From: a virus
Direction: 5' to 3' (one strand)
Length of the DNA stretch: 37,279 nucleotides
IMG/VR virus record: IMGVR_UViG_3300030098_002146
Span: 1 to 37,279 of that record
The notes beneath the pieces are model-generated. The model was not told the origin of the DNA. It did no database searches and saw nothing but the letters and a program-made list of their open reading frames with translations. The position numbers and the translations under genes are program-made. Shown in pieces: positions 2,151 through 37,279 of this stretch (the first letter of the stretch is position 1; each line of letters opens with the position of its first letter).

Positions 2151-3239
2151 CTATTTATTTTTTTGATAGTTAATTAAATATTGGTTGACTATTTGCTTGT
2201 GCTTGATTGAGCCATCATAGTTGTCAGATATATCTTCATAATCTATTTCCATTTGATTAGGGTCTTTTAGCTCTTCTGTTGTTGTTAACTGAATATCGCT
2301 GCAACAATCAGGACAAAATCTCCAATCTTCTTTATCTGTACTCCATTTACTTGGTTTTAAGTTTTTACACCCGCAATAATAACAACACTCAACCCCATCC
2401 TCATCGTGAATTACTTCTGAATCTCCGTACCAATAATCTCTATTGGCTCCATAAAAATCTCCATACTCGTAATCTGCATATCCAAAAATAAATTTATTTT
2501 CGTATTTATTACAATCTAATTCTTTAACTAGGTTAATCATCATATTCAAGCAATTATTAGCGTCATCAAATATAACAACCTCATCGTCTGAATGTGGAGA
2601 GTAGTATCCGCAACTCATATTTGCTACACAAACACCAACACCATTCTCTGCTAATTGCCCTACATCTGTAATGGCTCCTGAAGTTTCTTTATATCCATGA
2701 TGCGCAAGTATAGGAGCTATAGCATTGCTAAATTCATCACTAAAAAGCCTTCCTGATATGTTGTTTACAAAATCAGTATTACCTCTTCTGTCGCCCTGTA
2801 AACAATATCCAACATCCTTAAACCATTCCATGTCTGCATTTCGGCTTCCTATACAACCAATTTCCTCTGAATGAAAAAAGGCACATTTGATTTTATCAAA
2901 CTTCATTAGCATTTGTAATGCTAGCCACACTCCCACTTTATCGTCCCCACCAACACCTACCTGTGTTCCTGTTTCAGAGTTAAAAGCGAACAAACACCCG
3001 TCATCATCAAAAACCTTATAGTGTTTATGTATGTCGTGTACTGTGTCTGTGTGAGCTACTATACATGGATATATTTTAGAGCTACCTTTAGTTATGTATA
3101 TATTGTTTTTGTTTATCACTACTTCTGCATTAGGAACATTAGCTTTGCAAAATTCATAAATATAAGTAATCATATCATATTCATTACCACTTGTGGTTTG
3201 AATTGATAAAGTCTCAATAAGTAATTGTTTTCTATTCAT
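2151..3239 (-). CDS. M20-family (peptidase T-like) zinc metallopeptidase with C-terminal zinc ribbon, 362 aa
   Basis: The M20 dinuclear-zinc motifs are all present and in order: AHTDT (H63, D65), GVGGDDKVG (bridging Asp at 99/100), HSEEIGCIGS (catalytic and ligand E125/E126), QGDRRGN (D150) and SPHSDDE (H216). Family enzymes are exopeptidases or amidohydrolases that cleave small peptides. Beyond residue 240, the usual end of the catalytic core, comes an acidic Tyr-rich linker and then a four-Cys zinc ribbon (C286/C289 and C309/C312). The lid or dimerisation insert of many M20 enzymes seems absent. It is the first gene after promoter 3446-3477 and a structured-looking leader. The substrate is unknown. 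The motif set gives high confidence in the fold; a role in host peptide or peptidoglycan-fragment breakdown is only inference. Confidence 0.85.
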   Translation of the reverse strand: MNRKQLLIETLSIQTTSGNEYDMITYIYEFCKANVPNAEVVINKNNIYITKGSSKIYPCIVAHTDTVHDIHKHYKVFDDDGCLFAFNSETGTQVGVGGDDKVGVWLALQMLMKFDKIKCAFFHSEEIGCIGSRNADMEWFKDVGYCLQGDRRGNTDFVNNISGRLFSDEFSNAIAPILAHHGYKETSGAITDVGQLAENGVGVCVANMSCGYYSPHSDDEVVIFDDANNCLNMMINLVKELDCNKYENKFIFGYADYEYGDFYGANRDYWYGDSEVIHDEDGVECCYYCGCKNLKPSKWSTDKEDWRFCPDCCSDIQLTTTEELKDPNQMEIDYEDISDNYDGSIKHKQIVNQYLINYQKNK

Positions 3240-3441
3240 ACGCGTTTTCTTTTAGTTAGTTAATAGTTAGTTAGAAAAGAAATGGGAGGGCATTTTACCC
3301 TATCCTGCCAAGCATGAGGTTTATTCTCGGGCGAAACTCCTCAATTAAGGGTATTTTTAACCCTACAAGTAGATACCGAACCTCCCAAATCTATATAAGT
3401 GGCTCAAGAATTAACCTGACCTTTGTACTTCCACTTAATTC
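3240..3441 (-). promoter_or_regulatory. Candidate structured RNA leader of the M20 peptidase operon
   Basis: About 200 nt lie between the expected transcription start (near 3440) and the peptidase start, with no open frame of note and visibly more G+C than the flanks. On the minus strand I can pair 3381-3387 with 3283-3289 (UGGGAGG/CCUCCCA), closing a domain with two inner hairpins: 3360-3364 with 3348-3352 and 3339-3343 with 3315-3319. Upstream, 3435-3441 pairs with 3408-3414 (GAAUUAA/UUAAUUC) and 3431-3437 pairs with 3396-3402 (UAAGUGG/CCACUUA). These two overlap, so they are alternatives or a pseudoknot. This suggests a cis-regulatory RNA or a separate small RNA. I know no named family that it fits. 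Confidence 0.5.
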
Positions 3442-3445
3442 TATA

Positions 3446-3477
3446 CAAAGATACGAAATATATTTGAATTGACCAAA
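3446..3477 (-). promoter_or_regulatory. Bacteroidetes-type promoter for the M20 peptidase operon
   Basis: Read on the minus strand, TTTG (3474-3477) is followed after 20 nt by TATCTTTG (3446-3453), a perfect match to the Bacteroidetes housekeeping sigma consensus TTTG-N19..21-TAnnTTTG. The start of transcription should fall near 3440, giving a leader of about 200 nt. Confidence 0.75.
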
Positions 3478-3505
3478 TTATTTAGCACTTTATTTAAAAT
3501 AATTT

Positions 3506-3583
3506 AGAAGAGAGAAGGAAAATAGTAATCTTTCAAAGTATAACTGCTGGTTAATAATTAATGATTACAACCTCCCCTCTCCT
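3506..3583 (-). terminator. Long hairpin after the SSB-like gene, probable terminator or RNA-processing element
   Basis: Starting 8 nt after the SSB-like stop, 3571-3583 pairs with 3506-3518 over 13 bp (three G-U pairs). Inside, GTAATC pairs with GATTAC over 6 bp, and a small TAAC/GTTA hairpin caps it. The 3' flank is A/T-rich but lacks a clean U-run, so intrinsic termination is likely but not certain. It separates the DNA-metabolism operon from promoter 3446-3477. Confidence 0.5.
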
Positions 3584-3591
3584 AAATGTTT

Positions 3592-3849
3592 TTAGAATGG
3601 CAAATCTTCATCCTCTACATTATCAGCTTTAACTTCTTTTGGCGGCTCATAAGTATTTTCGTAAGCGTAATGAGTTGCTCCTTTTTCAGAAGGCTCTCTC
3701 CTTTCTGCTATCGTTATGTTACACCATCCTTTTTTTGCTATTTTTTGCAAGTCATCTACTTTAAAACTTGCGTTAAATAAATCTCCATATTGAGTAGTAA
3801 CTTTTTTTATACTACTTGCTACATAATTTTTTTCTGACATTTTATTCAT
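3592..3849 (-). CDS. Small SSB-like protein with acidic DLPF tail, 85 aa
   Basis: A short protein with a beta-rich core (roughly residues 20-65) ending in an acidic linker and the terminal EDEDLPF, the kind of tip (DDDLPF/DDDIPF) that bacterial SSB proteins use to dock replication and repair partners. The core is too short for a classic OB-fold SSB. The ITIAERREPSEKGATH stretch resembles small phage ssDNA-binding or PUR-type proteins. It is last in an operon with an Erf/SSAP-like gene and a DnaA-like gene and overlaps the DnaA-like gene by 8 bp. A start at M4 (3840) is also possible. I infer ssDNA binding from the tail and the context. Confidence 0.6.
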   Translation of the reverse strand: MNKMSEKNYVASSIKKVTTQYGDLFNASFKVDDLQKIAKKGWCNITIAERREPSEKGATHYAYENTYEPPKEVKADNVEDEDLPF

Positions 3850-4291
3850 TTTTGGTTATTAAATTTTGTGCTTGGTTTTGAACTAAAGAATCTATTTGTT
3901 TTTGTATTTTATTTTTCATTTTTTCCAAATGTTTTAATTCGTCCATAAAATACTCAATACTATTCTTATCTACTAAAGTTTTCTTAATTTTATTGTAATT
4001 ATCATCGTACCCTTTATAAAGCTCGCTATAAGTATTGTGCATCTTTACCGCGTGCATAACAGTAGCGTGATGAGTGTTTGCCATCTTTCCAATAGTTTGT
4101 AAGGGGAGACCGAAAATATTCCTTAATAAAGCGCAGTACACCCTTCTAGCTTCAATAATTTCAATCTTTCTAGATTTAGATGTTACTATATACCACTCTA
4201 AATCATACAATCTCTCTATCTCTCCTTTAATTCTTTTGTTTCTTTCATCGGTAAACGCTAATGACTTAATCCTTATCTTATTCTGTCCCAT
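3842..4291 (-). CDS. Stand-alone DnaA domain IV-like DNA-binding protein, 149 aa
   Basis: Residues 47-85 read as the DnaA C-terminal DNA-binding domain: a helix with EARRVYCALLRNIFGLPL, then the signature TIGKMANTHHATVMHAVKM (66-84), equivalent to the DnaA IGxxFGGRDHTTVxHA motif. There is no AAA+ ATPase part. A basic N-terminal arm and a C-terminal coiled-coil-like Lys/Gln-rich helix (about 113-140) flank it. It probably binds DnaA-box-like sequences and could redirect or block the host initiator, or act as a regulator. It overlaps neighbours on both sides (19 bp and 8 bp) in the DNA-metabolism operon. Confidence 0.75.
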   Translation of the reverse strand: MGQNKIRIKSLAFTDERNKRIKGEIERLYDLEWYIVTSKSRKIEIIEARRVYCALLRNIFGLPLQTIGKMANTHHATVMHAVKMHNTYSELYKGYDDNYNKIKKTLVDKNSIEYFMDELKHLEKMKNKIQKQIDSLVQNQAQNLITKNE

Positions 4292-4801: not shown

Positions 4802-5051
4802 TTTTTCGCATTTGTTCGTATTGGTCTTTCGGGTCTCTTTTGATTTCATTCTCTTTTAAATATTTTAATATTTCTTCTGCTTCTATTTCTGAAAGCTCAT
4901 TTATATTTAACAATATATTTTCTTTGTCTGAGCTAGGTAAAGAAGTGTAGGGAAGGATGCTCTCAATATAATTAAGCTGCCAATGTTCTGCTTCTTTTGG
5001 CTTGCCGTTAACAACATCCTCCATCCACTCTTCATGTTCATTATTAGTCAT
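4782..5051 (-). CDS. Hypothetical acidic protein, 89 aa
   Basis: A Glu/Asn-rich helical protein (MTNNEHEEWMEDVV at the start; LSEIEAEEILKYLKENEIK in the middle). There is no motif that I recognise. Small acidic helical proteins next to recombination genes are often partner or inhibitor proteins, but I have no direct evidence here. It overlaps the Erf/SSAP-like gene by 8 bp upstream and the 74-aa gene by 20 bp downstream, so it is tightly coupled within the operon. Confidence 0.65.
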   Translation of the reverse strand: MTNNEHEEWMEDVVNGKPKEAEHWQLNYIESILPYTSLPSSDKENILLNINELSEIEAEEILKYLKENEIKRDPKDQYEQMRKNGVFDS

Positions 5052-5472
5052 CTACAATCTCATCTTGACCAAATACTCCTTGCTCATAAAAACCAGCAAT
5101 CTTCAACACAACTCTGCTCATAGCTCTCTTTTCTGCCATAGCTACAGGGAACTTTTTACCACCTCCCATTAAATTACTATCAGAAGCTTCTCCAAAACTC
5201 ATCATGTTTCTAACATCTGATTCTCTGTGTCCTGTTTTCATTGTTGCTGTTGCTCTCATAACAACCCAATCAGTTTGCATAACGATAGGTTCGTAAGCTA
5301 CCATAATGTTTTTCTTGCTTACAATCTTATCTATACCTGTTCTAGTTATAATTACAAAGCCACGCTTGTCTTTATAAACATCTTCTTTAACAAGTCCATT
5401 TTCTCTAAATAGTCTTTTTAAAGTTTCTTCTTTTGTTTCTTTTACTTCCGTAGTGTTTTCAACTTTTTTCAT
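5044..5472 (-). CDS. Erf/SSAP-like recombination-associated protein, 142 aa
   Basis: The C-terminal half has the pattern shared by phage single-strand annealing families: TATMKTGHRES, then FGEASDSN, then KKFPVAMAEKRAMSRVVLKIAGFYE (in pieces, residues 86-130), where AEKRAxxRxxL is the diagnostic block. The N-terminus is a short Lys/Glu-rich helix. It probably helps anneal or handle ssDNA in phage recombination, together with the SSB-like protein and perhaps the VRR-NUC nuclease. The family link rests on this motif only. The start is backed by the box TTAACTAA 12 nt upstream (5485-5492). Confidence 0.6.
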   Translation of the reverse strand: MKKVENTTEVKETKEETLKRLFRENGLVKEDVYKDKRGFVIITRTGIDKIVSKKNIMVAYEPIVMQTDWVVMRATATMKTGHRESDVRNMMSFGEASDSNLMGGGKKFPVAMAEKRAMSRVVLKIAGFYEQGVFGQDEIVDD

Positions 5473-6629: not shown

Positions 6630-6660
6630 CAAAGATACAACAATTTTTTAAACTACCAAA
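6630..6660 (-). promoter_or_regulatory. Bacteroidetes-type promoter of the DNA-metabolism operon
   Basis: On the minus strand TTTG (6657-6660), 19 nt, then TATCTTTG (6630-6637). Its -7 box is identical to that of promoter 3446-3477. The start should be near 6624, about 37 nt before the first gene. Confidence 0.75.
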
Positions 6661-35400: not shown

Positions 35401-35440
35401 GGTAGGTCAAAACGCCCTATTACTATATTAAACAGGCCCA

Positions 35441-35484
35441 GCAGTTTCAACGGCCTGGCAGTTTCAGGGGGTTTAGCAGTTTCA
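35441..35484. repeat. Three direct repeats GCAGTTTCA, iteron-like
   Basis: GCAGTTTCA occurs at 35441-35449, 35458-35466 and 35476-35484, with spacings of 17 and 18 bp. An inverted repeat CAGGCC/GGCCTG brackets the first copy. The G+C content here is clearly above the AT-rich surroundings. Such repeats are typical of replication iterons or operator arrays. Confidence 0.6.
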
Positions 35485-36391: not shown

Positions 36392-36631
36392 TTAATAAGA
36401 TGTTTCTCCATATTGACCCTCAATATAGATGTTTTGAAATTTTATATCCAAATCCTTTTTTTTAGCTTTTGTATCTCTTTTAATTCTTGCTATCAGTCCT
36501 TCGTCTTTTTTTATCATTTCCAAATCATTAGTCAGCACAAAGGTATCAATTTTTCCATAACGAAACGCTCTAGCTGAACCTCTGTTGCGGTATCCATAGT
36601 CTATAATAACCCTATATATAGGCTTACCCAT
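36392..36631 (-). CDS. Hypothetical protein, 79 aa
   Basis: A basic beta/alpha protein (MGKPIYRVIIDYGYRNRGSA, then DTFVLTNDLEMIKKDEGLIA and KFQNIYIEGQYGE). I know no family. The ATG overlaps the 74-aa gene by 8 bp. The same eight first codons appear at the left window end, showing that this gene spans the contig joint. Its start region contains a perfect palindrome CCTATATATAGG inside the coding sequence. Confidence 0.65.
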   Translation of the reverse strand: MGKPIYRVIIDYGYRNRGSARAFRYGKIDTFVLTNDLEMIKKDEGLIARIKRDTKAKKKDLDIKFQNIYIEGQYGETSY

Positions 36632-36848
36632 TTCGTTTTTCCTTTTCTATCTCCAACACTTCTATCAACTCTTCTTTAGTGTGAAGCTTTCTTGCCTTAT
36701 TGCCATAAATTTTAGCGTTTTCCCTGCTATACTCATCAGGATTATAAACAAGTTTAACTTCCCTAACAAATTCTTTTGAGTCGTATTTAACTATCCATCT
36801 AGAATTACTACAATGATTATGTCTTTTTAAATGATGTAAGTAGCTCAT
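36624..36848 (-). CDS. Hypothetical protein, 74 aa (right copy)
   Basis: Same gene as at 18-242, with Asn at positions 11 and 15 and Glu at 26 instead of Lys, Asp and Asp. Here it is followed by the complete 79-aa gene, so this copy shows the true downstream order. It is 1 bp after the DUF3310 gene. Function unknown. Confidence 0.75.
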   Translation of the reverse strand: MSYLHHLKRHNHCSNSRWIVKYDSKEFVREVKLVYNPDEYSRENAKIYGNKARKLHTKEELIEVLEIEKEKRNG

Positions 36849-36849
36849 T

Positions 36850-37071
36850 TTATTTTTGCTTTATTTCTTCTATTTTCTCTAACTCAAACTCCAAATGTGC
36901 TATAGCTTTTTTGATGCACTCTATTGGTTTTGCGTGTTTCTTTTCGGCTCTCAAAAGATAGGTAACAGCGGTTCCTATATTATAGTTTAAGTCAAATCCC
37001 GAAACTACTTTTCTAGCCTCATAACCATTGTTACCCATGTAGTAATGCGGTACTCTATTGTCTCTACTCAT
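36850..37071 (-). CDS. DUF3310-like protein, 73 aa (right copy)
   Basis: The protein sequence is identical to that of the left copy (244-465) although 12 bases differ. It carries the DUF3310 pattern GTAVTYLLRAEKK and the KKAIAHLEF helix. It overlaps the partial upstream gene by 8 bp. Confidence 0.8.
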   Translation of the reverse strand: MSRDNRVPHYYMGNNGYEARKVVSGFDLNYNIGTAVTYLLRAEKKHAKPIECIKKAIAHLEFELEKIEEIKQK

Positions 37072-37279
37072 TTGTGTCTGTTTTAGTGTAGTATTTTCTT
37101 CTTAATCCTATTTTCATTTCCCTCTCAATAATTTTTTTAGAAAGACCTCCATCCTCTTCAGATGCTTTTAAATAGTAATCTGCTATAACAAAAAATACAT
37201 TGAGGTTAAAATCTAAAGCCCTTCTCAAGGTTTTTATTTTTTCTTTATAATTCAAAGATAGATAATAATTTTTAGTAAG
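37064..37279 (-). CDS. Partial hypothetical protein (right copy of the 87-aa gene)
   Basis: The frame is open to the window end, so the start is missing; an internal TTG at 37255 is not a convincing start. Its sequence matches the left copy (458-721) from LTKNYYLSLNYKEK on, with one change (Glu to Asp in SEEDGG). Confidence 0.7.
   Translation of the reverse strand, partial: LTKNYYLSLNYKEKIKTLRRALDFNLNVFFVIADYYLKASEEDGGLSKKIIEREMKIGLRRKYYTKTDTNE

Follow-up and report, generated by a model that had tools for sequence, protein, structure and literature searches.

Exchangeable hairpin domains in leader and intergenic RNAs of a group of marine Bacteroidota phages

The window analyzed here comprises one virus record, 37,279 bases long, in which the minus strand carries nearly all long ORFs. 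The encoded terminase is nearest to flavobacterial phage terminases, such as that of Croceibacter phage P2559Y, and no tRNA or tmRNA was found in the window. A direct terminal repeat of 673 bases (1–673 and 36607–37279) is 95.8% identical between its two copies, with 28 mismatches. Because contig L002 spans the terminal-repeat junction, it probably represents a single genome, circular or terminally redundant, whose record was joined from slightly differing copies. For comparison, 80 loci, designated by L numbers, were fetched from IMG/VR by alignment of the peptidase described below.

The region of interest lies between two genes on the minus strand, which also carries the promoter, leader domains and intergenic element described here. 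The downstream gene (2151–3239) encodes a peptidase assigned to PHROG 4191 'peptidase' with a weak Pfam M42 match. The small upstream gene (3592–3849) has no Pfam or PHROG match, and its product may be SSB-like, the sole basis for this likeness being the acidic DEDLPF tip of the C-terminus. Most near relatives have a homologue of this gene ahead of the peptidase, which makes it the upstream landmark of the region. Just upstream of the SSB-like gene, positions 3842–4291 encode a protein with a DnaA C-terminal DNA-binding domain (Pfam Bac_DnaA_C, E 9e-12). In Cellulophaga phage Calle_1 (L007), an annotated tmRNA gene (2382–2741) is located close upstream of the peptidase.

The peptidase gene is preceded by a Bacteroidota-type promoter (3441–3480) with TTTG at 3477–3474 and TATCTTTG at 3453–3446, which is kept in about 50 relatives. 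Its two boxes agree with the -33/-7 consensus of Bacteroidota, TTTG/TANNTTTG, where position -5 is the final G of the -7 box (PMC6847099); this bears out the consensus promoter named in the preliminary description. Applying the Flavobacterium johnsoniae spacing from the same study to the -7 box of the window would place the transcription start at 3441 and give a predicted leader of 202 nt before the peptidase; the average leader in F. johnsoniae is 33 nt (PMC6847099). This stretch of about 200 nt was described earlier as gene-free and richer in G+C than its surroundings, and both points hold: it contains no sense ORF of at least 40 amino acids, and the G+C fraction is 0.40 in 3272–3441 versus 0.25 in either flank. 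The leader ends in an A-rich pre-start segment, CTAACTAACTATTAACTAACTAAAAGAAAACGCGT (3240–3273), which keeps its place beside the start codon whether or not a relative carries structured domains. At a second promoter of the window, at 6637, TATCTTTGTACAGAATTT is directly joined to CAACTAACTAACTATTAAC, giving a domain-free leader in which a pre-start-like segment follows the promoter.

The peptidase leader is composed of two separate tandem domains, A (3396–3437) and B (3278–3392), and not of one domain with alternative folds. Domain A consists of a closing stem, TAAGTGG/CCACTTA (3437–3431 with 3402–3396), around the core AAGTACAAAGGTCAGGTTAATTCTTGAG, which forms an asymmetric internal loop and a small hairpin. 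Domain B has the outer stem AGA-UU-UGGGAGG/CCUCCCA-UU-UCU, an internal loop UUCGG/GGGUAAAAUGC, the stem UAUCU/GGAUA and a variable top of two hairpins (3364–3348 and 3343–3315). The stems drawn previously are present in the sequence, namely the closing stem TGGGAGG/CCTCCCA (3387–3381 with 3289–3283) and both inner hairpins. Two overlapping pairings had been proposed as mutually exclusive or as a pseudoknot. One of these, TAAGTGG/CCACTTA, forms the stem of domain A, which is conserved and covaries, while the other, GAAUUAA/UUAAUUC, is absent from the other A copies, where the 5' half is missing, and a divergent copy (L141) has a different loop. A further proposed contact, UUCGG/CCGAG, is not conserved among the eight B copies: UUCGG occurs in 8/8, but six copies lack the CCGAG hairpin and L028 has an altered one.

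The predicted fold of the whole leader has an energy of -44.5 kcal/mol, no better than that of shuffled sequence (z -0.35; 69/200 shuffles as good), and the domains alone reach z -1.60 (B) and -0.72 (A). Energy by itself would mean rejection of a structured RNA, so the evidence must come from relatives. Copies of domain B outside the window were identified in L023, L028, L108, L109, L111, L112 and L114. A covariance model (R1) constructed from four short B copies, with the window left out, finds the window copy at 3279–3392 (62 bits, E 1e-13) as well as those of L028, L112 and L111. The B stems exhibit 14 double-change cells versus 5.5 in shuffles (0/2000 shuffles as high); UAUC/GAUA in some copies is UGUC/GACA in others, and changes in the two outer arms go together. 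The core of domain A is found with other, compensated stems in L018/L020, L050, L032, L103/L107 and L100, and its arms covary (4 double-change cells versus 1.0 in shuffles). The divergent A copy of L141 combines a compensated inner stem and a changed loop with the same AAGAACAAAGG internal-loop strand. A third domain, C, found in relatives, has 8 double-change cells versus 2.7 in shuffles (0/500 shuffles as high), with CUG/CAG alternating with CUU/AAG and UUG/CAA. A loose C pattern recovered two more true copies (L134 and L136), and in IMG/VR a B pattern with loosened gaps gave only chance matches in coding sequence besides the known copies. In domains A, B and C, the internal-loop sequences are thus retained, and the changes in the stems are compensatory. 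Constant positions make up 10/12 of the unpaired core versus 6/14 of the arms in A, and 12/15 of the unpaired core versus 12/24 of the paired positions in C, an apparent core conservation that is inflated by the gathering of A, B and C copies mostly with fixed core patterns; stem covariation is unaffected by this. Each class comprises about 6–8 distinct copies with mutually related sequences. With compensatory changes above those of shuffles in all three domains and model matches far above chance, the proposal of a new structured phage RNA is upheld.

Searches of Rfam 15 gave 0 matches at the curated threshold in the window or 20 related loci, and permissive Rfam searches gave no match in the leader domains, in agreement with the earlier remark that the leader fits no known class. 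Similarity to cultured phages by blastn was limited to the promoter. Models R1–R3 found none of the domains in 299 Flavobacteriales genomes, a weak negative since only a small number of candidates in each genome were scored. The literature searched, the coverage of which was incomplete, contained no account of exchangeable hairpin domains. Structured leaders in marine phages are already known, including manA, wcaG and PhotoRC-II, which like the present domains are structured RNAs upstream of marine phage genes that were identified by comparative genomics (PMC2864571). Those RNAs are tied to gene type and are in Rfam, whereas A, B and C are gene-agnostic and absent from Rfam 15. A, B and C are now defined well enough for covariance models, and several more domains were found, none of them in Rfam.

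Among the relatives, the promoter and the pre-start segment are fixed in place and the stretch between them varies. This slot holds A, B, C, about six further structured domains, a plain loop, or nothing, the hairpin-less leaders including L024, L030, L031, L033 and others; the remaining leaders bear one or two hairpins. Other leader interiors are D (L022, L027), J (L012, L014), K (L016/L017) and L (L021), with two further ones in L008 and, as a second interior, in L022. The P11–P12 region of RNase P may be resembled by domain D and by the second interior of L022. The same scaffold stems enclose different interiors. In the window, scaffold ATAGATTTGGGAGG...CCTCCCATTTCTTTT contains B, and in L018 and L020 it contains A. 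Scaffold AAGATTTGAGAGG...CATTTCTTTT (with its 3' side also given as ...TTTCATTTCTTTT) contains B in L023 and A in L050, and in L025 and L051 it has a plain loop. Scaffold GAATTTAAGG...CCTTAAATTC encloses C, D, J and others. The change-over point between scaffold and domain is the top of the stem, commonly at a GG/CC step.

A second slot of the same system directly follows the SSB-like gene, where element G (3509–3583) forms a hairpin with a conserved interior (z -3.81; 0/200 shuffles as good) that is found with other stems in L008, L009, L010, L015, L024, L030 and L031. The scaffold of this slot, AGGTTGGGGG...CCCCCTTCCTTTTTT, contains G (L015, L030), B (L028, L112) or C (L075, L134, L136). In a second phage group, L036 (at 2836) and relatives L032–L048 have another conserved hairpin interior, GGCACGACGCC...TATTAAATGTTTT, in the post-SSB slot. 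Domain B also follows an exonuclease gene in L111, lies near a contig end in L108, and occurs in the leaders of a homologue of the window ORF 5044–5472 (L109) and of another ORF (L114). Domain A lies between a gene and a terminator in L100 and the L031 contig. In L103/L107 it is nested in the top of C, between ACAGAGG and CCTCTCAGACG, where L134 has ACAGAGTAAGACTCTCAGACG, and model R2 spans the nested A as a single C element (65 bits).

Closely related phages differ in these domains. L018 and L020 are 97–98% identical on both sides of the slot, L018 carrying C and A and L020 only A; in the pairs L022/L023, L015/L023 and L027/L030 the peptidase genes are 92–93% identical, yet the domains differ. 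Domain turnover therefore outpaces change in the surrounding genes. It is well supported that a group of marine Bacteroidota phages has these domains as a modular set, with constant scaffold stems at inferred transcript 5' ends and after genes, and an apical domain swapped between phages and between slots. Mosaicism of phage genomes is familiar at the level of genes; here the mosaic unit is an RNA domain of 30–100 nt inside a hairpin. Close relatives with different domains also constitute a natural domain-swap series for direct tests of function.

The movement between slots, the nesting of A in C and the presence or absence of a domain between near-identical phages would also follow if the apical domains were selfish or hitch-hiking cassettes that recombination carries from hairpin to hairpin and from which the phage gains little. 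This is rather improbable, as compensatory changes fit the stems to each scaffold, the loops are conserved where the stems vary, and all copies are on the sense strand in UTR-like positions, with no target duplications or encoded protein seen.

The distribution of the domains also bears on the preliminary description, in which mutually exclusive stems were the basis for a riboswitch or attenuator of the peptidase. Conserved internal loops around covarying stems do give the domains an aptamer-like appearance. A gene-specific riboswitch or attenuator is nevertheless not supported, and a classical ligand-sensing riboswitch of the peptidase gene is very improbable: the same domains occur in the leaders of other genes and after other genes, the peptidase leaders of close relatives hold other domains or none, and the exclusive pairing is not conserved across homologues. 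The earlier reading was thus right about a previously undescribed structured RNA and wrong about its plan, which is two plug-in modular domains and not one switch.

The explanation we favor, with a probability of roughly 0.4 and from sequence comparison, is that hairpins at the transcript ends control RNA decay in cis while presenting interchangeable motifs. Hairpins would pair the 5' end and cap the 3' end of their own transcript, and RNA decay would thereby be slowed or directed. Since both transcript ends appear to be hairpinned, control of RNA decay is the simplest role they could share. In leaders of at least 75 nt, the first six inferred bases are paired at 0.63 versus 0.37 in shuffled sequence (Wilcoxon p 3e-4, an optimistic value as the leaders are mutually related); the corresponding values are 0.18 versus 0.20 in short leaders. 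The window leader is an exception with a 5' pairing of 0.14, and its extreme 5' end fits the decay reading poorly. At the other end, the post-SSB architecture finishes in a U run and resembles a decorated terminator. Stabilization of mRNAs by 5' hairpins is established in E. coli and B. subtilis, and the stem-loops of ompA, papA and aprE likewise lie at or near the mRNA 5' end before a weakly structured start region (reviewed in PMC3997798). Those stem-loops are gene-specific and simple, whereas here constant stems carry interchangeable, conserved apical domains.

Protection could be given by plain hairpins, which leaves the conserved internal loops unexplained; these demand a further, specific role. 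The apical domain may add a specific contact, the candidates being a ribonuclease, an RNA-binding protein or RNA polymerase, and domains could be exchanged through recombination in the short GC-rich stems. It is a tentative suggestion that the phages practice a combinatorial display of RNA domains, in which standard hairpin sockets at transcript ends accept interchangeable modules that are exchanged fast between close relatives. If so, an arms race in which host RNases or RNA-sensing defence are the opponents would perhaps drive the exchange. Other hairpins that recur between phage genes are the intergenic UUCG hairpins of T4 and the RNase III sites of T7, which terminate, cut or stabilize transcripts. 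In these systems one motif is repeated in each genome, whereas in the present phages many motifs replace one another in a given slot.

Contact with RNA polymerase would instead suit control of transcription in cis, in which the nascent hairpins act on the polymerase as put-like antiterminators or as attenuating terminators. The put RNAs of phage HK022 are leaders of about 70 nt directly after the promoter, with two stem-loops and pairing near the 5' end, and the two tandem stem-loops directly after the window promoter are like putL (PMC9378689). This likeness is at the level of anatomy: put elements share sequence with one another and act on E. coli RNA polymerase, whereas the elements of the window type are not alike in sequence among themselves and their folds differ by phage. 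In L056/L057 the leader has a long stem and then a run of seven T just before the peptidase, a good intrinsic-terminator shape, and the hairpins of the SSB slot are followed by TTCCTTTTTT. However, no U run follows the GAATTTAAGG-type scaffold, the UUUCUUUU next to domain B on its 3' side is readable as the partner of AGA at the stem base, and several relatives (L024, L030, L031) have no element. A search of the window for intrinsic terminators returned one weak match inside B (3301–3287; 0.2 expected). Transcription control is considered unlikely.

If the domains were processed and then acted in trans, as decoys or anti-defence RNAs for instance, this would explain why unrelated folds turn over so rapidly in one slot. 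It would also agree with the lack of dependence on the neighboring gene and with the B copy of L111, which is outside any obvious leader. We consider action in trans quite doubtful, as there is no target, mostly no free promoter–terminator unit, and no above-threshold match to known families of defence or CRISPR RNAs.

Two smaller features were observed in connection with the domain-bearing loci. In L100, a short leader hairpin (2487–2526) contains only the 3' strand of domain B (GGATAGGGTAAAATTATCC) and scores 25 bits with R1; it is either a reduced B or a chance likeness. In the window, a 15-nt repeat of the GGCCCAGCAGTTTCA type occurs three times at 35435–35484 with a spacing of 17–18, and similar GAAACTGC repeats follow the gene bearing domain A in L100 and L141; these 15-nt repeats are possibly iterons of a replication origin.
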